This document shows positions 11,352-38,433 of a stretch of DNA of 64,000 nt, piece by piece. The translations under genes were made by a program, and so were the position numbers. Where the stretch lies: positions 124,001-188,000 of the forward strand of contig NZ_JACIEU010000006.1 in NCBI RefSeq assembly GCF_014197035.1. Direction: 5' to 3'. The DNA is from Sphingobium scionense. GTDB lineage: Bacteria > Pseudomonadota > Alphaproteobacteria > Sphingomonadales > Sphingomonadaceae. A model generated the notes under the pieces. It had not been told where the DNA came from, did no database searches, and saw only the letters and a list, made by a program, of their open reading frames with translations. How positions within the stretch are numbered: the first letter of the stretch is position 1; every line of letters starts with the position of its first letter.

Positions 11352-11571
11352 TCACGGCACACGGGGCGCGCATCGTCGCCCATCGTCCAGGCTGGTGCCC
11401 CCGCTCCCGCCCGAGTTCGCGCAGCAGTTCGTGGAAGGCGGATGGCGGCGCATCGAGCGGGTCTATGGTGCCCGCAATGATCTGGTGCGCAAGTGGATAG
11501 CCATGGCCGGCGGGGAGCGCGAGCTTAAGCGGCTGCGGCGGGAGTATATGGCTGGGAGGCGGAAGGGATGA
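11344..11571 (+). CDS. Hypothetical basic protein, 75 aa
   Basis: A 75-residue, very basic protein with an HTH-like helical pair (GGWRRIERVYGARNDLVRKW). The stop overlaps the ATG of terS by four bases. DNA binding is plausible from charge only. Confidence 0.5.
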   Translation: MLNHGTRGAHRRPSSRLVPPLPPEFAQQFVEGGWRRIERVYGARNDLVRKWIAMAGGERELKRLRREYMAGRRKG

Positions 11572-12062
11572 CTCCGAAGCAACAGCGCTTCGTTGACGAA
11601 TATCTGATCGACCTGAATGCCACTCAGGCGGCCATTCGGGCAGGCTACAGCGCGAAGACGGCAAACGAGCAAGGTGCGCGGCTGTTAGCGAATGTTAGCG
11701 TCCGTAATGCTGTCTCAGAGGCCAAGGCCAAGCGGTCGAAGGAAACAGGCATCGACGCAGCGTGGGTGTTGAGCCGGCTCGCCGCCGAAGCCTTTGCCGA
11801 CCTTGCCGACCTGTATGATGAACATGGTCGGGTGAAGCCGGTAAAGGATTGGCCATTGGTGTGGCGCCAGGGGCTTGTCGCGGGGATCGAAGTCGAGACG
11901 ATCGGGGAAGGCGCGGGCCACGTTACCAAGATCAAGATCAGCGAGCGGATCAAGCGGGTCGAGTTGATCGGCAAGCATGTCGACGTGCAAGCCTTTAAGG
12001 AAAAGCTGGAGGTCGCTGCGGCGATGACGCTGGTGATCGATCCTAAGGATGCTGCGCTTTGA
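11568..12062 (+). CDS. terS: Terminase small subunit
   Basis: A 164-residue protein with the Terminase_2/XtmA N-terminus: MTPKQQRFVDEYLIDLNATQ, AAIRAGYSAKTANEQGARLL. This HTH-bearing domain recognises the phage pac/cos DNA and recruits the large subunit. The remainder covers the oligomerisation region. It overlaps terL by four bases (TTGA). Confidence 0.9.
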   Translation: MTPKQQRFVDEYLIDLNATQAAIRAGYSAKTANEQGARLLANVSVRNAVSEAKAKRSKETGIDAAWVLSRLAAEAFADLADLYDEHGRVKPVKDWPLVWRQGLVAGIEVETIGEGAGHVTKIKISERIKRVELIGKHVDVQAFKEKLEVAAAMTLVIDPKDAAL

Positions 12063-13507
12063 GTCCAGCAGCCGGATTTGCTGACGAAATTACTGCTGAA
12101 CGCCCTGTTGGCATAGGCCACAACGGCGGCCCTCCGATTGCCAAACTGACCCCGAGGCAGGAAGAGGCGCGCGACCTCCTCGCCTCATCGGCCCGCAACA
12201 TCATGCTTCGGGGCGGATCGCGCTCGGGCAAGACCTTCCTGCTGGTCCGCGCCATCCTCCAGCGCGCCATCAACGCGCCGGGCAGCCGGCATGCGATCTT
12301 CCGATTCCGGTTCAACCACGCCAAGACCAGCATATGGGCCGACACGCTGCCCAAGGTGCTGAAACTGTGCTTTCCTGCCCTGCGCGTCCGGTTCGACAAG
12401 ACGGATTTCTATGTCGAGCTGCCAAACGGGTCGCAAATTTGGATCGCCGGCCTGGACGATAAGGAACGGGTCGAGAAGATCCTTGGCGCGGAATATTGCA
12501 CGCTCTACTTCAACGAGAGTAGCCAGATACCTTGGGGATCGGTGGAAATCGCCATGTCCCGCCTCGCGCAGAAGTGCGAACTGGCTCCAGAGATCGCGGC
12601 GGCGACCGGCCGCACCCATCTGCCGCTCAAGGCATATTTCGACTGCAACCCGCCGAGCAAGCTGCACTGGTCGTTCCAGTTGTTCCGCGCCAAGGTGAAG
12701 CCTGGCACCAAGGAAGCGCTGCCCAACCCCGCCGATTATGTCGAAATGAAGGTCAACCCTTCGGACAATGCCGATAACCTGCCTGCCGAATATTTCGAGG
12801 TGCTGGCGTCCATGTCTGCGGCCAAGCGGCTCCGGTTCGAGGCTGGCGAATGGGCCAGCGAGGTCAATGGCGCGCTTTGGGCGCTGGAGGACCGTCAGAC
12901 AGAGGGCGGGACTATACCCGGCATCGATGGCCACCGGGCGACGCTGGAACGCAGCCCTGACGATGGCAGGCCTCAGGTGCGCTATGCAGGCGCAGTGATC
13001 GACCTGCAGCGCATCGTGGTCGCGGTCGATCCTAGCGGCACCAAGGGCGACGGAGGCGGCGATGACATCGGCATCGTGGTCGCTGCTAAGGGTGTCGACG
13101 GGCGCGGCTATGTGCTGCAGGATGCGACCTGCCAGCTATCGCCTGATGGCTGGGGCCGGCGCTCGGTCGAGATGTATCGTCGGTGGGGTGCTGATCGCGT
13201 CGTTGGCGAACGCAACTTTGGCGGCGCCATGGTCGAGTTCGTGGTGAAGACGGCCGACAAGTCGGTGCCTTACAAGGAGGCGAACGCGACGCGAGGCAAG
13301 GTTGTGCGCGCTGAACCGATCTCAGCGCTCTACGAGCAGGGCAAGATCAGCCATGTGGGGGATCACCCTGACCTTGAGGACCAGATGTGCAATTTCACCG
13401 CGTCGGGGTTCGTCGGCGAGGGGTCACCTGACCGGGCCGATGCGTTGGTGTGGGCGCTGACCGAGTTGATGTTGAACGGCAAGGGCAGCGCCTTCGACGT
13501 GCTTTAG
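12059..13507 (+). CDS. terL: Terminase large subunit
   Basis: A 482-residue packaging ATPase/nuclease. Walker A is GGSRSGKT (residues 52-59, lysine 58); YFNESSQIPWGS fits the Walker B/coupling region. The C-terminal nuclease half shows VAVDPSGTKGDGGGDDIG with metal-binding aspartates, and a late DALVWALTEL aspartate. The start is TTG at 12059, overlapping the terS stop (TTGA); no upstream alternative exists. The N-terminal IGHNGGPP motif recurs in alphaproteobacterial phage proteins. Confidence 0.93.
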   Translation: MSPAAGFADEITAERPVGIGHNGGPPIAKLTPRQEEARDLLASSARNIMLRGGSRSGKTFLLVRAILQRAINAPGSRHAIFRFRFNHAKTSIWADTLPKVLKLCFPALRVRFDKTDFYVELPNGSQIWIAGLDDKERVEKILGAEYCTLYFNESSQIPWGSVEIAMSRLAQKCELAPEIAAATGRTHLPLKAYFDCNPPSKLHWSFQLFRAKVKPGTKEALPNPADYVEMKVNPSDNADNLPAEYFEVLASMSAAKRLRFEAGEWASEVNGALWALEDRQTEGGTIPGIDGHRATLERSPDDGRPQVRYAGAVIDLQRIVVAVDPSGTKGDGGGDDIGIVVAAKGVDGRGYVLQDATCQLSPDGWGRRSVEMYRRWGADRVVGERNFGGAMVEFVVKTADKSVPYKEANATRGKVVRAEPISALYEQGKISHVGDHPDLEDQMCNFTASGFVGEGSPDRADALVWALTELMLNGKGSAFDVL

Positions 13508-13549: not shown

Positions 13550-15427
13550 ATGGGAACCGTGACGCGCCTCTGGGATGGCCTGGCCAACGTTTTGACCGGG
13601 CGCGGAACGACGGTCGACCGCTCAGCGCACAACTTCTGGATGCGCCGGTTCACCACCCCCGAGCAGATCGAGAGCGCCTATCTCGGCTCCTGGCTGCATC
13701 GCAAGATCGTGGATATCCCGGCTCAGGACATGACCCGCGCCGGCCGCGATTGGGACGCGACGGACGACCAGATCAGCGCGATCGAGAAAGAGGAAAGGCG
13801 GCTCGGTTACTGGCCCAAGCTGTATGAGGCGCTGACCCTTGGACGCCTCGGTGGCGGCGCCATCCTTATCGGCCTTGGCGATGATCCGACCAAGCCCCTG
13901 CCCACATCGATCCGGCCCGGCCAGATCCGATACCTGTCCGTCCTCTCGCGGTGGCAACTGTCGCTCGGCGAAATGGAGACGGACCCGGAGAGCGACAACT
14001 TCGGCCAGCCCCGCTATTTTCGCCTGTCAGGAACCGGGCGCCAGGTCGATATCCACCCCTCGCGTGTCGCCGTGTTCAAGGGGCTGCCCATCCCCGCGAT
14101 CCGCATGACATCGTGGGAGGATAATTTCTGGGGCATGTCCGTCGTGGAGGCCTGCGACGAGGCGGTCCAGCAGGCGACCACCGCTTGCGCGGGCTTCTCC
14201 GTGCTGATCGATGAAGCCAAGATCGACGTGTTCCGGTTCAACGGCACGGTCGAACAGCTCAGCCAGCCCGATGGCGAAGCGAAGCTGATGAAGCGCGTGG
14301 AACTGACCAACACCGGCAAGAGTGTTCATCGCGCGGTCATCCTCGACAAGGAAGACGAGTGGGTGCAGCGTCAGCTTTCGCTGGCTGGTGTCCGCGATGT
14401 CATCATCACCTATGACGCGCGCGTGGCAGGCGCGGCCGATATCCCCGCGACCCGCTTGTTCGGGAAGTCACCGGATGGGCAGAACAGCACCGGTGAAAGC
14501 GACCTCGCCAACTATTTCCAGGGCGTTGGCGCCAAGCAGGACATGCAGCTTCGCCCACCCATGCAGCAGATCGACGCGGTCATGATCCCTTCCGCCGGCG
14601 TGCCCGCCGATCTGCCTTGGACCTTCTCGACGCTCATGGTGCTGACCGAGCAGCAGGCAGCAGAGATTGAACTCAAGGAAGCCCAAGCGCTCGAAAAGAT
14701 CGTGGGCCTCGCGCTGGTCCCTGAAACCGCGATGGCCAAGACCGTCCAGAACCGCCTGATCGAAAGCGGGCGCTGGCCGGGGCTGAAGAAGGCGATCGAG
14801 GAAGCTGAGGCCTCCGGCGAGGAGCTTCCCGAGAGGGTTGACGAATCCGAACTGGGGATCGTGCCCCTCGGAGAGAAAGGAGGTGGTCAGTCGTCTCGTG
14901 CGCCGGGCGGTGGCCGTTCCACTGTGGCTACCGCCGACGCATGGCTATCCGACGCCACGCCGCGCGCGCTCTATGTCCAGCGCAAGCTGCTGAACGCCGC
15001 CGACCTGATCGCATGGGCCAAGGACAACGGGTTTGCCACCACCCTGCCTGCCAGCGACATGCATGTGACGGCCCTCTATTCCCGCAGCCCGGTCGACCCC
15101 ATGAAGATGGGCCGCGATTGGCGGGAGGACGAGAAGGGCCAGATCATCGTTCGCCCCGGCGGTCCGCGCGTCATCGAGAAGCTGGGCGAAAACGCCGTCG
15201 TTCTGCGCTTCGCCTGCCCCGATCTGGACTGGCGCCACAAGGACATGATCGAAGCGGGCGGGTCGCATGACTGGCCGGAATATGCGCCGCATGTGACGAT
15301 CAGCTACACCGCGCCCGAGAGTGTCGACATCGATGCGCTCAAGCCGTTCAACGGTGCGCTGCGGTTCGGGCCTGAGATATTCGAGGCGCTCGATCTGGAT
15401 TGGAAGTCGAAGGTGACGGAACAGTGA
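13550..15427 (+). CDS. Portal protein fused to an Acb1-like 2H phosphoesterase domain
   Basis: A 625-residue protein. Residues 1 to about 440 are a DUF1073-type portal (MRRFTTPEQIESAYLGSWLH, IVDIPAQDMTRAGRDW, FWGMSVVEACDEAVQQATTA, RLFGKSPDGQNSTGESDLAN). The portal ring is the DNA channel at the head vertex. After a Gly/Ser-rich linker (about 430-455), residues 460-620 form a separate domain with two HxT motifs, HVTALY (H505, T507) and HVTISY (H581, T583). This is the 2H phosphoesterase signature and matches the anti-CBASS protein Acb1, which cleaves the cyclic nucleotides of CBASS defence. Both catalytic pairs are intact. The stop overlaps a possible GTG start of the next gene. Portal identity is firm; anti-CBASS activity is inferred from family. 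Confidence 0.88.
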   Translation: MGTVTRLWDGLANVLTGRGTTVDRSAHNFWMRRFTTPEQIESAYLGSWLHRKIVDIPAQDMTRAGRDWDATDDQISAIEKEERRLGYWPKLYEALTLGRLGGGAILIGLGDDPTKPLPTSIRPGQIRYLSVLSRWQLSLGEMETDPESDNFGQPRYFRLSGTGRQVDIHPSRVAVFKGLPIPAIRMTSWEDNFWGMSVVEACDEAVQQATTACAGFSVLIDEAKIDVFRFNGTVEQLSQPDGEAKLMKRVELTNTGKSVHRAVILDKEDEWVQRQLSLAGVRDVIITYDARVAGAADIPATRLFGKSPDGQNSTGESDLANYFQGVGAKQDMQLRPPMQQIDAVMIPSAGVPADLPWTFSTLMVLTEQQAAEIELKEAQALEKIVGLALVPETAMAKTVQNRLIESGRWPGLKKAIEEAEASGEELPERVDESELGIVPLGEKGGGQSSRAPGGGRSTVATADAWLSDATPRALYVQRKLLNAADLIAWAKDNGFATTLPASDMHVTALYSRSPVDPMKMGRDWREDEKGQIIVRPGGPRVIEKLGENAVVLRFACPDLDWRHKDMIEAGGSHDWPEYAPHVTISYTAPESVDIDALKPFNGALRFGPEIFEALDLDWKSKVTEQ

Positions 15428-15468: not shown

Positions 15469-15756
15469 ATGGACCGTGTAGACAGCGCATCGGACGACCG
15501 CACCGCCAACAATGCCGTCCGCCATACATATCGCGTATTGGGCGATGTCGAGAAGGCGCAGATGGTCGCGATCAAAGACAAAGGGGCTGAGTTCCTAAAC
15601 CTGATCGAGAGCCTTCGGAAAGAGCCTGAGCCTGTCATCAATGATGATGGCACGGAAAGCGCTTTCGCCGTCCACACTTTCGACCGCGAACTGAACATCG
15701 CCGCCGAGAAGATTGAGGAAGCCGTGATGTGGGCGGTGAAGCACATCACTGCCTGA
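15469..15756 (+). CDS. Acb2/Tad1-like cyclic-nucleotide sponge (anti-CBASS)
   Basis: A 95-residue helical protein. It carries AVRHTYRVLGDVEKAQMVAI, KDKGAEFLNLIESL, and ends LNIAAEKIEEAVMWAVKHIT. The plan (R..YR.L...E....IK..G....L...L, then a helix ending in KxEEAVMWA) matches the Acb2/Tad1 helical-hairpin family, whose members bind and sequester cyclic oligonucleotide signals of CBASS and Thoeris. The start at 15469 follows GGAG; an upstream GTG at 15424 overlapping the portal stop would add 15 residues. Directly after the portal-Acb1 fusion, it makes a second anti-CBASS layer plausible. Similarity is judged by eye; the binding pocket was not modelled. Confidence 0.72.
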   Translation: MDRVDSASDDRTANNAVRHTYRVLGDVEKAQMVAIKDKGAEFLNLIESLRKEPEPVINDDGTESAFAVHTFDRELNIAAEKIEEAVMWAVKHITA

Positions 15757-15779
15757 CGGTGCCCTATTCCCTCCACCGC

Positions 15780-16607
15780 ATGGCTCGCCAAGCAGGCAAG
15801 CGCCGCGACATCACCCTGCGCCCCATCATCCCTACCCAAGCCGCCGCGACCGACCTCGCCGCGATCTACGCGCCAGCCTGGCAGATATGGGCCGACAACA
15901 TCGACCGCATCCTTGCCGGCTATGACCCACAGCCTTTGCCAACCGCCGACGCGCTGACGATCGACACTGTGGATCAGGTGCAGGCCGCCATCAGCAGCGT
16001 GGCGCAGGAGTTCCTGACGATCCTCACCGCGAAGATAGCGCCAGGGCTGCGGCAGTGGGCTATTCGTGCGGAGCGCGTCCACCGCTCTAAATGGTCTGCC
16101 GCGATCAAAGCCGGCGTGGGCGTCGATCTCGACCTGATCCTGTCCGCGCAGCCGGTGGAGGAGACGCTGGGGACTTGGCTCGCGCGCAATGTGGCGTTGG
16201 TAACGAACGTGTCCGATCAGGCACAGGGCCGAATCGCTGACGCCGTGTTCCGAGGATATGAGCAGCGCACGCCGGTGCGCGAGGTGGCCAAGGAAATCCG
16301 CGAGGCGACGGGCATGGGGCGCGACCGGGCTTTGCGCGTGGCGGCCGATCAGTCGAGCAAGCTATCGTCCCAGCTCGACCGTGAACGGCAGGCAGAAGCC
16401 GGGCTGACGCAGTTCAAATGGCGCCATTCTGGGAAAGTTCACCCGCGATCATGGCACAAGGCGCGCGACGGCAAGGTTTATTTCAGCCGCAGCGGCAATC
16501 CGGTCGACGGCGGCGAGGCCATCCCTGCCGATGATCGCGCAGGGATGGCGCCTTGGTGTGGCTGCCGCGAGCAGGCTTATATCGCGCTGCTGGATGAGAT
16601 CGACTAG
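15780..16607 (+). CDS. Minor head protein, MuF/SPP1 gp7-like
   Basis: A 275-residue protein with the MuF-type C-terminal domain: EVAKEIREATGMGRDRALRV, AADQSSKLSSQLDRERQAEA, FKWRHSGKVHPRSWHKARDG, and the final PWCGCREQAYI. These proteins act in head morphogenesis next to the portal. A GTG at 15759 (giving VPYSLHRMARQ) is an alternative start. It follows the sponge gene without overlap. Confidence 0.82.
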   Translation: MARQAGKRRDITLRPIIPTQAAATDLAAIYAPAWQIWADNIDRILAGYDPQPLPTADALTIDTVDQVQAAISSVAQEFLTILTAKIAPGLRQWAIRAERVHRSKWSAAIKAGVGVDLDLILSAQPVEETLGTWLARNVALVTNVSDQAQGRIADAVFRGYEQRTPVREVAKEIREATGMGRDRALRVAADQSSKLSSQLDRERQAEAGLTQFKWRHSGKVHPRSWHKARDGKVYFSRSGNPVDGGEAIPADDRAGMAPWCGCREQAYIALLDEID

Positions 16608-17706: not shown

Positions 17707-19032
17707 ATGCGGCAGACAAGCCCCATGGTGCTATTCTCCGACGCCCTGACCCTTGACGCGCCCCGCCGCACCAGTGACGGCTACATGGCCGTGCGGGCAA
17801 AGGCGGCTCGGACTGGAACATACGCATACCTGGGCAGCGAAATCGATCCCGACAACAAGCACGGCCTTCGCGACGCGGGCATGGTCAACGTCCTGCGGGA
17901 CGCAGCTGCCGTTTTCGATCCGCTGTCTGCGCACAGCTTCATCGGGAAGCCGATCACCGACAATCACCCTACCGTAGCGGTCAACGCCAAGAACTGGCGC
18001 GATCACGCGCGCGGGACGGTGATGGGCGCGAAGTGGGAGGAAGGCGGCTATCTCGCCTTCGACCTGATGCTGACGGATGCCGACACCATCGATGCGGTGG
18101 ACGCAGGCAAGCGCGAACTGTCGAACGGCTACGCGGCGGAACTGCAATTCGGCGATTTCGATGGCCCCGGCGGCGTCAAATGCGTGGCCAAGCAGATCGC
18201 CATCAAGGGCAATCACGTCGCAATCGTGGACCGGGGCCGCGCTGGCCCGTCCTGCGCCATCACCGATGCCGCTCGCTGCGACAGCGCCCCTCGTTCCATC
18301 TTCGACAGCCTTACCACCGACGGAGCCGCAGAGGCCATTGCGTGGCTGAAGAAGGCCATCGCTCTGCATAAAAAGCATATGGACGGCACCGCTCCCACGA
18401 CAGGTAGCGATGGCGAAAAAAGCCAAATGCTCATGATGACGCAAATGAAAAACGCGTTGTCCGAGCTTGAGTCCGGATCGTCCGGCAAATCCATGAAGAT
18501 GGACCAGTCCACTTACGGAGCCCCTGCCATGAAGACCATGTTGATCGACGGGCTGACCGTCGACGTGTCCAACGCCGATACGGCCGAGGCCACGATCAAG
18601 ACCCTGATCGCCGCGCGTGATGCGGCCGGAGCGAAGGTTGCTGGCCTCGAAACGCAGGTCGTCACCCTGACGACTGACAAGGCGACGCTGGAAAAACAGG
18701 TCAAGGAACTGACCGACGCCAAGCCGACCCCCGCTCAGTTGCGCGACGCTGCCAAGCAGTTCTCGCAGGTGGTCGAGAAGGCCAAAGCTCTCGGCATCAC
18801 GGTCACGGACAGCATGGACGAGACGGCCATCATGAAGGCGGCCGTCACCAAGCATGTCGGTGACGCGGCCAAGGATTGGACCGACAAGGATATCTCCGTG
18901 TCCTTCGCCACCCTCAAGGCCGCCGACTCGTTCGACCCGCTGCGCCAGGGCATCATCGACAACGCCGCTCCCGGCGCAGTCACCAACATCGCCAACATCC
19001 GCGACGCCGCCCGCGCCGCGAGCAACCGCTAA
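17707..19032 (+). CDS. DUF2213 prohead protease fused to a scaffold-like region
   Basis: A 441-residue protein. The N-terminal about 200 residues match DUF2213, a prohead-protease-like domain (ELSNGYAAELQFGDFDGPGG, IKGNHVAIVDRGRAGPSC). The C-terminal part is a long coiled coil (VAGLETQVVTLTTDKATLEK) as in scaffolding proteins. Fusion of maturation protease and scaffold is common before capsid genes. A minus-strand frame of the same length is its shadow. Confidence 0.83.
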   Translation: MRQTSPMVLFSDALTLDAPRRTSDGYMAVRAKAARTGTYAYLGSEIDPDNKHGLRDAGMVNVLRDAAAVFDPLSAHSFIGKPITDNHPTVAVNAKNWRDHARGTVMGAKWEEGGYLAFDLMLTDADTIDAVDAGKRELSNGYAAELQFGDFDGPGGVKCVAKQIAIKGNHVAIVDRGRAGPSCAITDAARCDSAPRSIFDSLTTDGAAEAIAWLKKAIALHKKHMDGTAPTTGSDGEKSQMLMMTQMKNALSELESGSSGKSMKMDQSTYGAPAMKTMLIDGLTVDVSNADTAEATIKTLIAARDAAGAKVAGLETQVVTLTTDKATLEKQVKELTDAKPTPAQLRDAAKQFSQVVEKAKALGITVTDSMDETAIMKAAVTKHVGDAAKDWTDKDISVSFATLKAADSFDPLRQGIIDNAAPGAVTNIANIRDAARAASNR

Positions 19033-19505: not shown

Positions 19506-20597
19506 ATGCTCATCAATTTCTCTGACGCAACCGGGGGCATGTTCAAGGATGCCGCCTCCTTCCTCACGGCCGACGCCTCCCAGCAGCAGATCGCCTTCGA
19601 TCGTTGGGCGGCGTATGATGCCGAAATCGCGCGCACCTTCGGTGACAAGGCGGATCAGTTCTACGTCGATGCCCAGATCGGCCGTGCGTTCCTGACCCCG
19701 CAGCTGTTCCGCATCGAGACGCAGGTCTATATGCGCCGCTATCCCAACGCGGATCTCAACGGCCTGATTCCCATCAACACCGATGGCGACATGTGGGATG
19801 TCGGCACCGTGTTCTACAGTATGGACGAGGTCGGCAAGGCCGAGTTCCTGAGCGGCAAGGGCTTCGATATGCCCTATGCTTCGACGCTGATGGACCAGAA
19901 GAGCCGCGGTTTCCACCTGGCCGGCATCGGCTATGAATGGTCGACCCAGGAACTGCAGCGCGCCGCCAAGCTGGGCCGCTCGCTCCCGACTGACAAGGCC
20001 GGCGCAGCGCGCAAGGCTGCGCAGTTCTTCAAGCGCTCGGTCGCCATGACCGGTCGCACCCCCGGCGCCGCCACCTCCGAAAAGGGCTGGACCGGCTTCA
20101 CCAATGATCCGAACGTGCCCGCATCGAACGTGACGGCGGACGGCACCGGTTCGACCACGACCTGGGCCACCAAGTCGCCGGACCAGATCAGCCGCGACAT
20201 CTGGGCTGCCGTCAATCTGGTCGAGACGCAGACCAAGGAAACGCACACCGCGACCGTCGTGGCCCTGCCGACCCAGAAGCTGCGCTACATCGAGCAGACC
20301 CGCATGACCGATGGTTCGGGCACCATTCTCGACTTCATCCGTGGCAATCGCGACGGCGGCGACAACATCACCTTCAAGCCGATCCGCGAACTGGCCGGCG
20401 CCGGCGCCTCGGGCACCGATCGCATGGTCGCGTTCGATAGCTCCGAGGAAGTCGTGCAGTTCCACCTGCCCGGCGACCATGAGTTCCTGCCGGCGTTCCA
20501 GAAGTCGTCCATGACCTATGAGGTCGGCGGCATCATGAATATCGGTGGCACCGAAGTCCGCCTGCCCAAGGCAATGACCTACAAGGATGGTATCTGA
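19506..20597 (+). CDS. Major capsid protein (DUF2184 type)
   Basis: A 363-residue protein of the DUF2184 major-capsid family (HK97 fold). Recognisable parts are LFRIETQVYMRRYPNADLNG, a GFDMPYASTLMDQKSRGFHL core and the C-terminal VQFHLPGDHEFLPAFQKSS. It is the expected size and is placed directly after the cement protein. Codon use is strongly biased, as in abundant structural genes. Confidence 0.88.
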   Translation: MLINFSDATGGMFKDAASFLTADASQQQIAFDRWAAYDAEIARTFGDKADQFYVDAQIGRAFLTPQLFRIETQVYMRRYPNADLNGLIPINTDGDMWDVGTVFYSMDEVGKAEFLSGKGFDMPYASTLMDQKSRGFHLAGIGYEWSTQELQRAAKLGRSLPTDKAGAARKAAQFFKRSVAMTGRTPGAATSEKGWTGFTNDPNVPASNVTADGTGSTTTWATKSPDQISRDIWAAVNLVETQTKETHTATVVALPTQKLRYIEQTRMTDGSGTILDFIRGNRDGGDNITFKPIRELAGAGASGTDRMVAFDSSEEVVQFHLPGDHEFLPAFQKSSMTYEVGGIMNIGGTEVRLPKAMTYKDGI

Positions 20598-32893: not shown

Positions 32894-33586
32894 ATGGCCA
32901 CGCTTGCGCGCATGCTCGCGACCTTCCCGACGTGCCAGTTCAGCTTCGCCTCGCGCGAGATGATGGTCCGCGCCAACGTCATTTCGGGCGGGATAGCGAT
33001 CAACGGCGACGAAAGCGTGATTGCCACGGATGGAGGCGGCCGGTGGGTCGCTGATTATCAGAACGCGCCGCTCAACCGTCGTGAGAAGGTTTTGTCATGG
33101 CGCGCGCTTCGGGCGCTTCTCAACGGCGGAACGCGCGCGATCATATTCCCGATCTGCGACGCCCGCCACCAGCCCGTAGCGTCTCGCCAGCATGTCCCTC
33201 ACAGCGATGGTTCGCCGTTCAGCGATAGCAGCCTCTACAGCGGTGGGGATTGCGAGGTCAGGGCCGCCGCGAACGCACCTCTGCGCGCCACGTCGATGAC
33301 CATGGATATCGTGACGCTCGGCAAGCCCCTCATCGCCGGAGAGCGGTTCAGCATCAACCATCCGACCTGGCGCGACCGCCTCTATGAGATCGCGACAATC
33401 GATGGCGACGACATCACCTTCCGCCCACCGCTGCGCGAAGCCGTCACGGCTGGGACAGAACTCAACTTCTCCGACCCTCGCTGCGTGATGCGGCTGTCCG
33501 GTGACATGTCGGCGCCGCTCAGCGGCCCGCGCTTCGCCACCGGCTCCCTCATGCTGGTGGAAGACATGACCGGGAGCTATGAATGA
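32894..33586 (+). CDS. Tail protein, 230 aa
   Basis: A 230-residue protein (MATLARMLATFPTCQFSFAS) rich in strands (FRPPLREAVTAGTELNFSDP). Proteins of this type occur between tip and fibre genes. ATGA overlap with the fibre gene. Function inferred from place. Confidence 0.6.
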   Translation: MATLARMLATFPTCQFSFASREMMVRANVISGGIAINGDESVIATDGGGRWVADYQNAPLNRREKVLSWRALRALLNGGTRAIIFPICDARHQPVASRQHVPHSDGSPFSDSSLYSGGDCEVRAAANAPLRATSMTMDIVTLGKPLIAGERFSINHPTWRDRLYEIATIDGDDITFRPPLREAVTAGTELNFSDPRCVMRLSGDMSAPLSGPRFATGSLMLVEDMTGSYE

Positions 33587-36500
33587 GCCAGGCCATTGAT
33601 GACCTGAAAGTTGCCTGGCGCGATTTCGTCACCGCCGGGATTCCAGCGTCGGGCGAGAACGAGCCTGACAAGGGGCAAATCCGCGCCGGCCTGGACAAGC
33701 TGGACACGCTTCTCGCGACGATCGGCTCTGGCCTGCTGCGCTATGGCGACGTCCCCGCGATGGACGCCGACACGTCGCAGGACGATGGTGCGCTGGCCTA
33801 TGTCTACCTGAACAACGGCAGTGCCGCGGACCCCGCGAACGGCTTCTATGAGTGGACCGGCAGCGCGTGGATCGCCGCCCCGTGGTATCTCTCGGGCACT
33901 GGCATCGAAGATATTCTCACGCTGGCCGCCCTCTCCACCGGCAACCTCCTCCCCGACGTAAAGGGCCTGAACGTCGACAGCCCGACGCCGATCGCGGGTG
34001 TGACGGTGACGACGGACAGCGACGATGCGAAGATCGGCTTCACGATCGCATCGGGCCAGACGGGCGCAGGGGCAGTGCTTATCGCCTATCCTCTGCACGA
34101 CACCCGCACGATTGCCAGCCTCGCAGGCAAGACGATCCGCATCCTCGCGACCTATGCGGCGTCGGCCAACTTCCTCGCCACTAAGGGCCTCGCTGCCGAG
34201 TTTGTCGATATCGGCCACTTCGCCGGCACCGCGGGCGGCAGCCTCGTCTACGAGGGCCAGGTCGGCAACCTGCTCACCCGACTGGTCGAATACACGGTCT
34301 TGGGCACCGAGGATCACCTCGGGATCATCGCCCTTGTCCCGCCAGCGGCTCCGGCAGGCGCGGCAAGCCTGACGCTCAATTCGGTGTCCTATAGCGTGGT
34401 GGGCGACAATGCCGCGACGCTTGACCTCGCGATGGCGCAGAAGTCGGCAGAACGCTTCGGCCTCTCGCTGGCTGGAGAATTTCAGAACGGCGTCGGGCAG
34501 AAAGGCCTCGGCCCGGTCGATAGCACGGTCGTGGTCCTGCGCGATGCGACCAAGGGCTATGCCAACGGCCTGCGCATCCTCGCGGGCAACACTGGCGCCG
34601 GCAACAGCATGTCGGTCTTTACGCTGGTGGCGCCTGAGGACTTCGTTCTGGTGCGCGGCGCACGGGTCCGCCTGACCGTCGTTCTCAAGACCAGCACCGT
34701 CTTTGACCGCAAGCTGGACATTCTGGCGTCGGGTCATGTCCGCGCAACCGGTGGTGGGCCTCTCAACGAATATCGCGCCCTGACCCAGCACATCCGACCG
34801 GGCCGTCTCGTCGCGGTGATCGAAGGCATTTTCGACCCCGGCACCGAGCAGATCACGATCACCGTCAACAACATCAGCACGGCCAATGCTGCGGCGGATC
34901 AGGACTGGCAGTTCGATGATGTCCGGTTGGAGATCATTTCCACGGCTGAAGGATCGCTGACCGGGGCGCAGGCGACGATGGCGCTGCAGCGCAATTTCTG
35001 GGCGCGGCGGCAGGAACGTCCGGTTGGCCAGCAGGTCAGCGTCGCGCTGAGCGGTGGCGACTTCACGAACCTCTACAGCGCCTTTGCCAATGTGGTTGCC
35101 TATCAGGATGTCCTGCTGTCCGGCACGATCACGGCGACGACTTCGACCATTTCAACCCGGCCGTTCTTCCCGCCGTTCGAGAACGCCATTGTTATCGGCG
35201 TGGGAGCGACAAGGCCGCGCATTCTGCTGCAACAGCCGGTTGGCACTTCGCTGCCCGATGTGGAAGGCAATAGCGCGTCCGACTTCCATTTCAGCGGCTA
35301 TTTCACCAATGGCAATGTCGGCGGCTTTGGTATGCGATATGCCATCCACACCGACGACGGATCGAACGGCTATAAAAATCAAAAAATGGTCTGGGAAGAC
35401 TATGTTTTCCAGCATGACGGGAACGATCACATAGCCAGCGCATGGCGCAATACCGCCGCCCTTGGTTATGGTCTTTCCGATGGGAGCCATAAAATCTTTA
35501 ATGGCGTTAATTTCATCGCTTGGAATTACGATGCTGCCATCGGTCACGGTGACCCTCTCGCCAAAAAACCCGGCCGTATCGAATTCATTAATGCCGCTTT
35601 CTGCGCGCGACCGAAGTTCACTGATCCCGGTGCAAGTGTCGGTGGCCTTCGTCATATGGTTACGTCTGCGCTTGTTCGGGACCGCCTCGATATTACCGGC
35701 GCAAACCTGAACGGTGCGCTCATTGTCGGTAGTTCCCCATGGAACGAAACCGATCCGCTTAAAATTCCCGCGTTCAAGATCAACCTTAGCGTTGTTGGCC
35801 ACGCAAATGCCCCGTTCTCGTTTGTTTTGGATGATGACGGCTCAAGAGCCTTGCGTATCACCAGCGCCACGAAAGGCCCCGGCTCGTCTGTTGTCGTGAA
35901 TAATACAGCAGCGGCCGTTAATAAATTGCTTGGTCCGGTTGACAAACGAGCAACCCGCGCGGGTGCAACAAACGTTGCCGCATCGGTTACGGGTTACTAT
36001 GATATTGCTACTCGTAATGTTGGCCCGAATAACGACCAAGCTGTAACGCAGATAAGCGCACGGCTTACTGTTACTGATCCTTTCACCGTCACAATTGACG
36101 GCGGATCGCCTGTAACGTTTACGTTTGATGCGGGTATGAACAGCGCCCAATGGCTGACGGCCGCGCAGACCGCGCTTGGCTCCACTGCCACGATTGAACT
36201 TGTTAACTTGAATAACAATTATCGGCCGGAATTTCCGACCGAAGAAGAACGGGTTTGTAACCTGTCGTCCGTTATTATCCCACAAAAAGCAGCGGTTCGT
36301 TGGGCGGATGCCGGGCGCCCCTACGTTCAGGTGATGACCCCGGCGGATGATGCGTCAACCTTCGCAGGCTTCTGCTATGCTGACGAAATCCTGCCTAACG
36401 GTTGGGGCCGGGTAAAGTCTTCCGGGCAGATTAATCTGTCAATGGATGCTATCCGTTCGGATAGTGGCACGATTTATTCGGGTGATACTTTTGTTGTCTC

Positions 36501-38433
36501 GACAACTGACGGTAAGATTGCAGTCGGTAACGGTGCGGTCATTGCGGTTGCCGTGAATAGCCGTGATATCCGGTTTGAGGCCGGAACGGTTGAAGCGTTT
36601 CGCCTGGACAACTTGACGGCCGATCAGGTTGCGGATGGCGAAACCAAGGTCAGCATGACGGCAGAGGAGCGTGTAAGACTGCAAGAACTGAGCGTTATTT
36701 TTCGCAGCATTGACGGTGTTGATGGGATCGTATTCACGGACTCGGCCAGCAATGAGGTTGGCTTCATTCCATTCGACGCCACTCGCTCAACACAATTTCC
36801 GTTTCTCACCGCAGCCGCTGATCGAGCAACTGTCGGTCCTTTTACGGCCTTCGCTTCTGCCGGTGGCGCGGGCCTGTCCATTGTTGATGCGCACAGGATG
36901 GAGGTAGCATTCATCCCGTTCGATGATCTTGAACTTCGCCTGCCGTATACCAGCATTAAAAAGGACGCATTCACGGTGGGTCCGTTGACGGTTAGCCTGA
37001 TTGAAGGCATCGACGGCATCGTTTTCACCGACAAGCATCGTTTTGGTATCCTCCCACCGGGGGCGAGCAACGAAGGCGACTCCCTCGACAAGGCCGCCGT
37101 TCTCAAGCAATCGCGGCCTGCAAATTCGGTAGTCACCCAAGGCCACTCAAAGACGCAGCAGAATAGCTGGAGCAGCCCGACAAACCCGAGCAACCCGAAC
37201 GGGGGCACCGCCCGGAAAGCCGACCTCGGATGGCTGGCGTGGGCGGACTATTATCTGCGCGGTTCGATCAACTGGATTTGGAACGCCGGTGTAGGCGGCG
37301 AGAACGATGCTCAAATCATCGCACGCATGGCTAACGATGTCGTCGCGAAAGACCCGGCATGGTGTTTCATGATGGGTGGCACCTGCAACTCCATCAATGT
37401 TGGCCGCACCGCAGCCGAGATCATCGCTACCCAGATCGGCACGGAAACGCAGGACAGTTCCAATTCAATTCTTGGCATTCTGCAGGATGCCGGTATCCGA
37501 ACGCTGTGGCTGACCGATCCGACATGGCATGATGGCCATGCGGACCTCACACCGGCGAATATTGCTACGCTGAACCGCGTCAACCGGGCCATGCTGCGCG
37601 CCCCCGGCTACAAAAGCGGGCTGATGGCCGTAGATGCTGCCGGTCTGTTTGTGGACCCGCTATCGGCCACGGGATCAGCAAAGCAATATTGGCTTCAAGA
37701 CGATGACAATATCCACCCCTCTCCCTTTGGTGCGCGACATGCCGGATATTTAATGGCGCAGCGCCTGCTTGCGGCGGGCTTCCCGCTCATGGATATTCTG
37801 GTTGCATCGGCGGCCGACACCTACGACAATTCGGCCGCAAGCCGTCAGCTTCTCGACAATCCGTTGATGATTGCCACAGGTGATCCGCTACCGTCTGGTG
37901 GGATAGTTAGCGGCCGTCTGCCAGACGACTGGATCATAGAAACAACCGGGGCCTGGGCGGACGGAAGTATCACCTCGGCCTTGGTGCCACGGCTGGACGG
38001 GTACGGCTACGACTGGGTCGTCAGCGCGCTGAACGCACCCGCCGATGGCTCCAGATTTACGCTGATAGGGCAGGACATTCGCAGCCGCGTCACAACCGGC
38101 GATGTGCTGGAAGCGGCGGCGCAAGTCGATATCACGGGCATGTCGATGGTCAAGGGCCATGAGCTGGTATGCGCCTTGAGTGATGGGTCCGTGTTCCCCG
38201 CGATTTCCACGCTGGAGCGCGACGCGACCGTCAATAGCGGCGCGGGTTGGGGATATCAGTTCTACGATCAGGCCGACCTGGTCGGGGGCGTGATGAAAAC
38301 CGGCAAGGCCAGCGTGCCAAGCAATTCAATGACGGACAGTTCTGGCAGCCTTCGCTTCCGCACAACCTTCGGCGGCGCGGGCGGTGCCGCCACCGTCAAA
38401 ATGTCCCGCGCCCAGCTTCTGAAAAACTCCTGA
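33583..38433 (+). CDS. Tail fibre/receptor-binding protein with an SGNH hydrolase domain
   Basis: A 1616-residue protein, the largest in the prophage. Residues 1 to about 500 are a virion-attachment and beta-rich region. About 500-1180 is a more AT-rich beta-helix-like section with repeated units ending in DGIVFTD or FIPFD. About 1180-1400 is an SGNH/GDSL hydrolase: nucleophile S1189 in TQGHSK, glycine block in GVGGEND, N1269 in GGTCNSIN, and D1375/H1378 in DDNIHPSPFG. The last 200 residues are a carbohydrate-binding-like beta domain. Such fibre hydrolases remove acetyl groups from surface polysaccharides. Substrate unknown. Confidence 0.82.
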   Translation: MSQAIDDLKVAWRDFVTAGIPASGENEPDKGQIRAGLDKLDTLLATIGSGLLRYGDVPAMDADTSQDDGALAYVYLNNGSAADPANGFYEWTGSAWIAAPWYLSGTGIEDILTLAALSTGNLLPDVKGLNVDSPTPIAGVTVTTDSDDAKIGFTIASGQTGAGAVLIAYPLHDTRTIASLAGKTIRILATYAASANFLATKGLAAEFVDIGHFAGTAGGSLVYEGQVGNLLTRLVEYTVLGTEDHLGIIALVPPAAPAGAASLTLNSVSYSVVGDNAATLDLAMAQKSAERFGLSLAGEFQNGVGQKGLGPVDSTVVVLRDATKGYANGLRILAGNTGAGNSMSVFTLVAPEDFVLVRGARVRLTVVLKTSTVFDRKLDILASGHVRATGGGPLNEYRALTQHIRPGRLVAVIEGIFDPGTEQITITVNNISTANAAADQDWQFDDVRLEIISTAEGSLTGAQATMALQRNFWARRQERPVGQQVSVALSGGDFTNLYSAFANVVAYQDVLLSGTITATTSTISTRPFFPPFENAIVIGVGATRPRILLQQPVGTSLPDVEGNSASDFHFSGYFTNGNVGGFGMRYAIHTDDGSNGYKNQKMVWEDYVFQHDGNDHIASAWRNTAALGYGLSDGSHKIFNGVNFIAWNYDAAIGHGDPLAKKPGRIEFINAAFCARPKFTDPGASVGGLRHMVTSALVRDRLDITGANLNGALIVGSSPWNETDPLKIPAFKINLSVVGHANAPFSFVLDDDGSRALRITSATKGPGSSVVVNNTAAAVNKLLGPVDKRATRAGATNVAASVTGYYDIATRNVGPNNDQAVTQISARLTVTDPFTVTIDGGSPVTFTFDAGMNSAQWLTAAQTALGSTATIELVNLNNNYRPEFPTEEERVCNLSSVIIPQKAAVRWADAGRPYVQVMTPADDASTFAGFCYADEILPNGWGRVKSSGQINLSMDAIRSDSGTIYSGDTFVVSTTDGKIAVGNGAVIAVAVNSRDIRFEAGTVEAFRLDNLTADQVADGETKVSMTAEERVRLQELSVIFRSIDGVDGIVFTDSASNEVGFIPFDATRSTQFPFLTAAADRATVGPFTAFASAGGAGLSIVDAHRMEVAFIPFDDLELRLPYTSIKKDAFTVGPLTVSLIEGIDGIVFTDKHRFGILPPGASNEGDSLDKAAVLKQSRPANSVVTQGHSKTQQNSWSSPTNPSNPNGGTARKADLGWLAWADYYLRGSINWIWNAGVGGENDAQIIARMANDVVAKDPAWCFMMGGTCNSINVGRTAAEIIATQIGTETQDSSNSILGILQDAGIRTLWLTDPTWHDGHADLTPANIATLNRVNRAMLRAPGYKSGLMAVDAAGLFVDPLSATGSAKQYWLQDDDNIHPSPFGARHAGYLMAQRLLAAGFPLMDILVASAADTYDNSAASRQLLDNPLMIATGDPLPSGGIVSGRLPDDWIIETTGAWADGSITSALVPRLDGYGYDWVVSALNAPADGSRFTLIGQDIRSRVTTGDVLEAAAQVDITGMSMVKGHELVCALSDGSVFPAISTLERDATVNSGAGWGYQFYDQADLVGGVMKTGKASVPSNSMTDSSGSLRFRTTFGGAGGAATVKMSRAQLLKNS

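Follow-up and report, generated by a model that had tools for sequence, protein, structure and literature searches.

Among the closest described relatives of the protein analysed here are the Acb1 enzymes of T4 (57B) and FBB1 (7t26/7t27). As set out in Hobbs et al. 2022, the catalytic tetrad of Acb1 is made up of H44, T46, H113 and T115, the stacking residues are Y12, W74, F107 and W147, E141 contacts the adenine and W147 serves as the lid. The T4 enzyme is reported to degrade cAAA and cAAG, its activity is reported to appear early, and nine further Acb1 homologues are reported in the literature to have been tested and to have all cut substrate.

A second line of relatives concerns the architecture. 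The portal of the Pseudanabaena phage Pam3 (8hds_A) has the same two-part layout as the protein described below, matches it from end to end at 1.5e-100 and contains PF06381 together with Acb1 (5.5e-29); its second motif is HIS where the window has HVT. Fusions of 2H domains to MuF or portal proteins are described by Iyer et al. 2017 (PMC5512222), who propose that they act as RNases or break down defence nucleotides, and a 2022 survey (PMC9503650) states that they may work against SMODS and CRISPR signalling. Both sources cover the same architecture class and make an anti-signalling prediction, but they propose packaging and injection. As the sequence-only reading had stated, relatives fused to DUF1073 portals exist, the Pam3 chain among them. 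As a type the fusion was already known, and the idea that it counters nucleotide-based immunity had been published in 2017 and again in 2022. The accessible passages of PMC5512222 and PMC9503650 make no mention of this portal family, of cassette exchange, of 2H fusions to head proteases or of a neighbouring hairpin gene, and no description of Acb1 cassette exchange or of Acb1-protease fusions was found among the titles and passages of the open-licence papers searched. What is added here is the presence of Acb1 on several head-protein families, its exchange as a cassette, a hairpin gene as neighbour and two CBASS loci in the host.

The head module and its portal

The window (the whole stretch of 64,000 nucleotides that was analysed) contains a prophage-like head module with TerS, TerL, portal, hairpin, MuF-like, DUF2213 and major capsid genes, and the open reading frame at 13550-15427 sits within it. 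The features are as follows.

11568-12062: terminase small subunit (TerS)
12059..13507, + strand: terminase large subunit, directly upstream of the portal (Pfam Terminase_6C 8.6e-13)
13550-15427, + strand: portal-Acb1 fusion ORF, ATG start, 625 aa
13550..14869, + strand: portal core, residues 1-440, PF06381 at 39-382 (Pfam 7.8e-91; phrog_146 portal 1.7e-116; 8hds_A 1.5e-100)
14870..14950, + strand: Gly/Ser/Ala-rich linker, residues 441-467 (sequence)
14951..15424, + strand: Acb1-type 2H phosphoesterase domain, residues 468-625 (Pfam PF23474 2.7e-39; AlphaFold2 model; VIA Z 16.2 to 7t27)
15062..15070, + strand: first HxT motif, H505, V506, T507 (read from the DNA)
15290..15298, + strand: second HxT motif, H581, V582, T583 (read from the DNA)
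15383..15403, + strand: E612 and lid W618 (profile alignment to 7t26; roles from Hobbs 2022)
15425-15427, + strand: stop codon of the portal-Acb1 ORF
15469..15756, + strand: small Acb2/Tad1-hairpin gene (Pfam PF24729 1.4e-14)
15729..16607, + strand: MuF/SPP1 gp7-like head morphogenesis protein, start uncertain (phrog_324 4.1e-41; Phage_Mu_F 1.4e-06, at 29.4 bits against a Pfam cut-off of 29.6)
17707..19032, + strand: DUF2213 head protein (Pfam 2.5e-50)
19506-20597: major capsid protein

The portal part is a member of Phage_portal_3 (PF06381, DUF1073-type), which it matches at 304.9 bits in Pfam and to which its position between the terminase and the MuF/major capsid genes also points. By comparison with its relatives it would be a dodecamer in the virion. 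From the letters, a portal had been proposed that is followed by a Gly/Ser linker and by an Acb1-like 2H domain with two HxT motifs; the reading frame, the linker and residues H505, T507, H581 and T583 are all found in the DNA, and the two Pfam matches (PF06381 at 7.8e-91 and PF23474 at 2.7e-39) bear out both halves of the assignment. The first nine residues of the modelled stretch, linker residues 452-460, have pLDDT values below 50. An IMG/VR record of 50.8 kb (L020) contains an identical domain (100% identity).

Elsewhere in the window, positions 33583-38433 encode a protein of 1616 aa behind the tail genes, in which residues 1180-1518 resemble a lipase (phrog_6102).

Identity and conservation of the Acb1-type domain

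Profile, structure and residue comparisons place the C-terminal domain with Acb1. The PF23474 match at residues 473-620 spans profile positions 2-143 of 144 and scores 134.6 bits against a cut-off of 27, and the HxT/HxT catalytic tetrad is complete (H505, T507, H581 and T583). The nearest solved free enzyme by sequence is Acb1 of FBB1 (7t26), found at 1.1e-06 in a search with the single protein and at 3.6e-14 when eleven portal-fused Acb1 domains were combined into a search profile. An AlphaFold2 model of the domain, built from 51 sequences (pLDDT 86.1, pTM 0.81), agrees with the Acb1 crystal structure, the comparison that the sequence-only reading had put forward as a check: its top fold match is 7t27, Acb1 with cGAMP product, with Z 16.2 and 1.9 A over 134 residues at about 25% identity. 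The next matches are 7t26 (Z 15.4) and the enzyme of phage BCSR5 (Z 14.2), and the E. coli LigT entries follow at Z of about 10, the best of them being 4qak at 10.4. The predicted fold is closer to Acb1 than to LigT. That the two HxT motifs arose by chance is ruled out by the 134.6-bit profile match, the fold match at Z 16.2 and the conservation of the motifs.

In the profile alignment to 7t26, Y475, W575, E612 and W618 of the window domain align to Y12, F107, E141 and W147 of Acb1, the equivalence of Y475 to Y12 resting on its position near the N-terminus. The column of W74 holds the non-aromatic E543 in the window domain, within a loop of uncertain alignment. The domain and the T4/FBB1 enzymes have in common the fold, the tetrad, the adenine-contacting Glu and the lid Trp; the T4/FBB1 enzymes are free small proteins, whereas that of the window is a portal domain in a head module.

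Acb1-bearing loci were gathered from IMG/VR, from GTDB genomes (43 loci) and from named phages. The 381 loci gave 374 open frames with Acb1, which reduce to 307 distinct domain sequences and to 227 at 90% identity (NR90). The IMG/VR scans supplied the best 80 of 573, at least 534, 581 and 567 relatives, ranked by similarity to the first sequence, and the 307 distinct sequences include T4, DSS3P8, RcXuper and ZHS, which were fetched on purpose as yardsticks or phage loci. Among the 227 NR90 rows, where the similarity-ranked sampling means that residue counts are not population frequencies, the first H and the first T are each present in 226, with one gap, and the second H is likewise present in 226, with one N. 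The second T position holds T in 188 rows, S in 38 and A in one; the E141-type residue is E in 175 of the 227 and the W147-type residue is W in 156. The tetrad is incomplete in four sequences: L038 reads HVA, N replaces the first H in L227 and the second H in L137, and the first motif of L198 has a gap. That Acb1 lost its function in portals was considered as well and appears unsupported, these four being the only ones of the 307 distinct sequences without a full tetrad.

Fusion partners, cassette exchange and the neighbouring hairpin gene

By Pfam, the proteins to which Acb1 is joined belong to three families of portals and three of other head proteins. The combinations are listed here with the loci that represent them.

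Acb1 with Phage_portal_3 PF06381: the window and others (Pfam)
Acb1 with HK97-type Phage_portal PF04860: L017, L114, L121 (Pfam)
Acb1 with Portal_Mu PF06074: L095, L126, L129 (Pfam)
Acb1 with prohead protease Peptidase_S78: L130 (Pfam)
Acb1 with DUF2213: L139, L141, L176 (Pfam)
Acb1 with protease Peptidase_S78_2 and ChaB: L169, L177, L197 (Pfam)
Acb1 with Peptidase_S78_2 and NUDIX: L137 (Pfam; second His lost)

Profiles built here assign the portal in front of Acb1, for the 307 distinct sequences, to the PF06381 type in 264 cases, the Mu type in 16 and the HK97 type in six, shares that the similarity-ranked sampling biases toward the window's kind. The remaining 21 have no portal profile: eight are protease or DUF2213 fusions, in seven, L183 among them, Acb1 stands alone or next to some other partner, and six are shortened or known stand-alone genes outside the Pfam check (L061, L113, L371, L146, L147 and L148). 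A tree of 128 Acb1 domains, in which most branches are weakly supported, has eight partner changes, the minimum with six partner labels being five. With the Pfam Acb1 model, which is not seeded with fusions, six of 296 genomes of the window's order are positive, and all six Acb1 copies, including that of the window, are portal fusions (five of the PF06381 type and one of the Mu type).

Several individual frames depart from these arrangements. At L137:4323-7481 a 1053-aa frame combines NUDIX, Acb1 and Peptidase_S78_2, and with Asn in place of the second His its Acb1 is possibly a dead copy. A 1920-aa frame at L183:624-6383 joins an FAD/pyridine-nucleotide oxidoreductase to Acb1. The gene at L147:3489-3941 (Roseobacter phage DSS3P8) is labelled 'prohead protease, HK97 family' and matches the Acb1 profile, so that the label is likely a naming error. 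At L017:970-3234 (- strand) an HK97-type portal with Acb1 is followed by about 170 C-terminal residues that have no Pfam match at E 0.01.

DNA identity between divergent portal genes delimits the following feature.

14942..15420, + strand: exchangeable DNA cassette common to the L025 and L028 portal genes (blastn, sharp identity edges)

The divergent portal genes of L025 and L028 match the window portal gene by blastn only over 14942-15420, at 91.9 and 92.9% DNA identity; close to 14940 identity climbs from about 0.4 to 0.9, and it drops near 15420, just before the stop codon, so that the edges lie at the domain boundary. Confined to this interval, the identity of 92-93% marks an exchange of the Acb1 coding sequence as a unit. 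L028 also matches the window elsewhere, for example at 17734-18879 in the DUF2213 gene.

When 238 full-length portal-Acb1 proteins are compared two by two, Acb1 is better conserved than the portal in 26187 of 28203 pairs; 37 of the pairs combine at least 85% identity in Acb1 with less than 45% in the portal, and 13 show the reverse, with at least 85% in the portal and less than 60% in Acb1. For two Synechococcus phage groups and phiPSA1, tblastn gives identities of 61, 52 and 55% over the domain, versus 42, 40 and 37% over the whole protein. Of 1207 phage records with a related portal, 33 hold at least 80% of the query; among these 33, ZHS has Acb1 and portal in separate frames and Yong-M3-232 was joined from two pieces. 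Since most phage records with a related portal are without Acb1, the domain is an optional addition that is not needed for portal function. Rhizobium phage RHph_N28_2 (L010:5511-5870) has a related portal without Acb1 and then a gene for a PBECR3-type nuclease, which points to a slot for accessory domains after the portal.

In the window the slot directly behind the portal-Acb1 gene is occupied by the hairpin gene (15469-15756), which encodes 95 aa from an ATG at 15469 with GGAGAAA ahead of it, 41 bases past the portal stop. The Acb2/Tad1 hairpin profile PF24729 is matched at 54.4 bits against a cut-off of 27 (1.4e-14) on a 118-aa frame from a TTG at 15400, and the protein model has a pLDDT of 81.2. 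Among described proteins it can be compared with the Acb2 sponge (T4 Vs.4; 8h2j/8h2x), in which Y8 and F82 of the T4 form are reported as base-stacking residues. The window protein has the hairpin profile and a Tyr at the Y8 equivalent, which is invariant in 9 of 9 rows, but it has Thr at the place of F82 and lacks the Acb2 C-terminal tail. Because of the Thr at the F82 place the gene is not filed as Acb2; its product may be called Acb2-like in fold, with putative nucleotide binding only. The protein has no PDB sequence matches up to E 10, and a fold search with the model returned nothing at E of 0.001 or less, the highest Foldseek probabilities among the matches listed being those of 8h2x (0.60) and 7uq2 (0.57), both with E above 1. 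PADLOC assigned neither the portal nor the hairpin protein to any of its families.

Of the PF06381-type fusions, 262 are followed by 400 bases or more of sequence, and 26 of these have a hairpin gene in the slot, namely 17 of the window type (the window's included) and nine of the Acb2 type; elsewhere the slot holds one in 0 of 15 Mu-type, 0 of 5 HK97-type and 1 of 19 other loci. These rates cover Acb1-bearing loci alone, leave out four loci without downstream sequence and two on the minus strand, and make a link between the hairpin gene and Acb1 at most tentative. All three of the Acb2-type slot proteins that were put to Pfam (L152, L097 and L156) pass. That of L152 matches PDB 8h2j/8h2x (p26, 'Structure of Acb2') at 1.7e-13 and has the GYR start and the C-terminal tail, and the slot proteins of L097 and L084 are identical to those of Pseudomonas syringae GAW0119 (L109) and P. 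cerasi (L140). In some Pseudomonas relatives, then, the slot holds what is by homology an Acb2-type sponge. The seven small proteins scanned near the portals of L002, L003, L005, L006, L009 and L010 include none with the hairpin domain.

Hairpin genes are also found in other settings. In Sinorhizobium phage Aussie (L011:6010-6246), which has another portal, one lies between the head-to-tail adaptor and stopper genes, and others are present in virus SI2 and in ctCJ8213.

Host CBASS and the probable role of the domain

The genome in which the window lies also encodes two CBASS loci, both recognised by PADLOC.

G000:C9:30000-41000: CBASS locus L387, with capP, TRIP13, HORMA, HORMA, cyclase and NucC
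G000:C17:107000-116000: CBASS locus L388, with cyclase, E1-E2, JAB and SAVED/2TM effector

NucC is reported to be activated by cA3. With a NucC locus in the host and a T4 Acb1 that acts on cAAA, it is plausible that a relevant signal would be present in the same cell on induction. Enrichment of CBASS among Acb1 hosts was considered as further support and dropped, the sets not being comparable and the sample from the window's order giving p 0.35. More specifically, SMODS cyclases over the cut-off were found in 15 of 43 genomes with GTDB Acb1 loci versus 15 of 385 of the window's class, and in 6 of 15 sphingomonad hosts versus 20 of 296 genomes of the window's order, where the sets differ in size, isolation and taxa, overlap, and have baselines that include the window's genome. 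Within the order sample, a CBASS cyclase is present in one of six Acb1-positive genomes, which is that of the window, versus 19 of 290 others (Fisher p 0.35).

The reading that is favoured here, with a probability somewhat above even, is that the portal carries a working Acb1-type phosphodiesterase on a flexible linker, made together with assembling heads and tethered to them, its activity, timing and place being put forward by inference. On induction of the prophage, or on infection by a related phage, the head operon would be transcribed late, and portal monomers and portal-nucleated proheads would fill the cytoplasm. There the tethered domains would cut the cyclic di- and trinucleotides made by CBASS cyclases, at the 3'-5' bond beside adenosine and by metal-free acid-base catalysis. 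With the enzyme built into an indispensable head protein, its supply would track head assembly, when and where the reported CBASS triggers appear, and the copies that remain in the virion would be passengers.

Published triggers of CBASS are reported to include RNA from terminase genes and, according to a review, the prohead protease of Bas13. Both come from the same late module as the portal. Given the place of the gene in the head module and the presence of Acb1 on prohead proteases and DUF2213 proteins, action during head assembly fits at least as well as the entry-site action that the sequence-only reading had also envisaged, in which 12 copies may be at work ahead of any separate inhibitor. 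The factor common to portals, proteases and DUF2213 proteins would be the prohead, with which delivery of a domain freed by the protease would still be compatible. Several points speak against the tethered model: once assembly has closed the capsid, a C-terminal domain on its inside would no longer reach the cytoplasm; CBASS cyclases are not enriched in the Acb1-positive genomes of the order sample; the hairpin of the neighbouring gene has no equivalent of T4 F82; judged by the T4 Acb1, which is early, a late enzyme would not follow the known mode; and E543 stands at the apparent place of W74, while residues of the E612 and W618 type are not universal among the sequences.

The domain might instead be packaged in the virion, be freed by cleavage of the linker and pass along with the DNA into the cell infected next, forestalling CBASS as infection begins, a course of events that seems unlikely though by no means negligible. 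It is close to what the sequence-only reading had in mind, and the published account of Iyer and Aravind predicts it for 2H-MuF/portal fusions. The linker is flexible, and the head-protease fusions would place Acb1 inside the prohead. The Pam3 portal 8hds is absent among the 50 matches listed in each of two fold comparisons, which hints faintly that its domain is unmodelled and hence mobile or removed. On the other hand, the protease fusion of L137 has Asn in place of the second His. In general a portal remains part of the capsid, with its C-terminal side as a rule turned toward the inside, so that the domain would have to be released before it could act in a cell just infected; portals are not known to be injected.

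A still less probable course is that the domain acts by other 2H chemistry, on RNA ends (2',3'-cyclic phosphates or 2'-5' bonds) or other nucleotides, and not on CBASS signals. PHROG 755 gives the family the legacy label 'RNA ligase', LigT folds match at Z 10, and the 2017 paper is reported to prefer RNase action or nucleotide degradation for fused 2H domains; however, Acb1 clearly leads both the sequence and the fold matches, the adenine-contacting E and the lid W are present, and the adjoining slot can hold an Acb2-type sponge. That the domain is a structural part or a relic, an enzyme fold retained because the portal needs it to fold or the head to assemble, with catalysis irrelevant, is very improbable: three sequences have a substituted tetrad (L038, L227 and L137), but most related-portal phage records do without the domain, the catalytic residues are its best conserved part over the 227 rows, and it is exchanged intact.

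Beyond the tethered enzyme of the window, it may tentatively be suggested, at rather less than even probability, that Acb1 is a mobile 'immune-evasion cassette' carried on at least six head components because expression and assembly of the head module trigger CBASS. It would then be an eraser placed on the particle that raises the alarm, often beside a gene for a nucleotide-binding hairpin.

What deserves to be followed is the exchangeable cassette that several head proteins carry. Finders of small accessory genes miss such enzymes, which are annotated as portal, head protein or hypothetical protein. If the domain is active, an evasion enzyme would be lodged in an indispensable part of the virion, evasion would scale with head assembly, and loss of the gene from a carrier of the fusion would require a change of the portal. 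Its recurrence on unrelated portals and on head proteases would then tie the site of anti-CBASS action to the site at which CBASS is triggered, and by moving or removing a single domain, when and where CBASS triggers would become testable.
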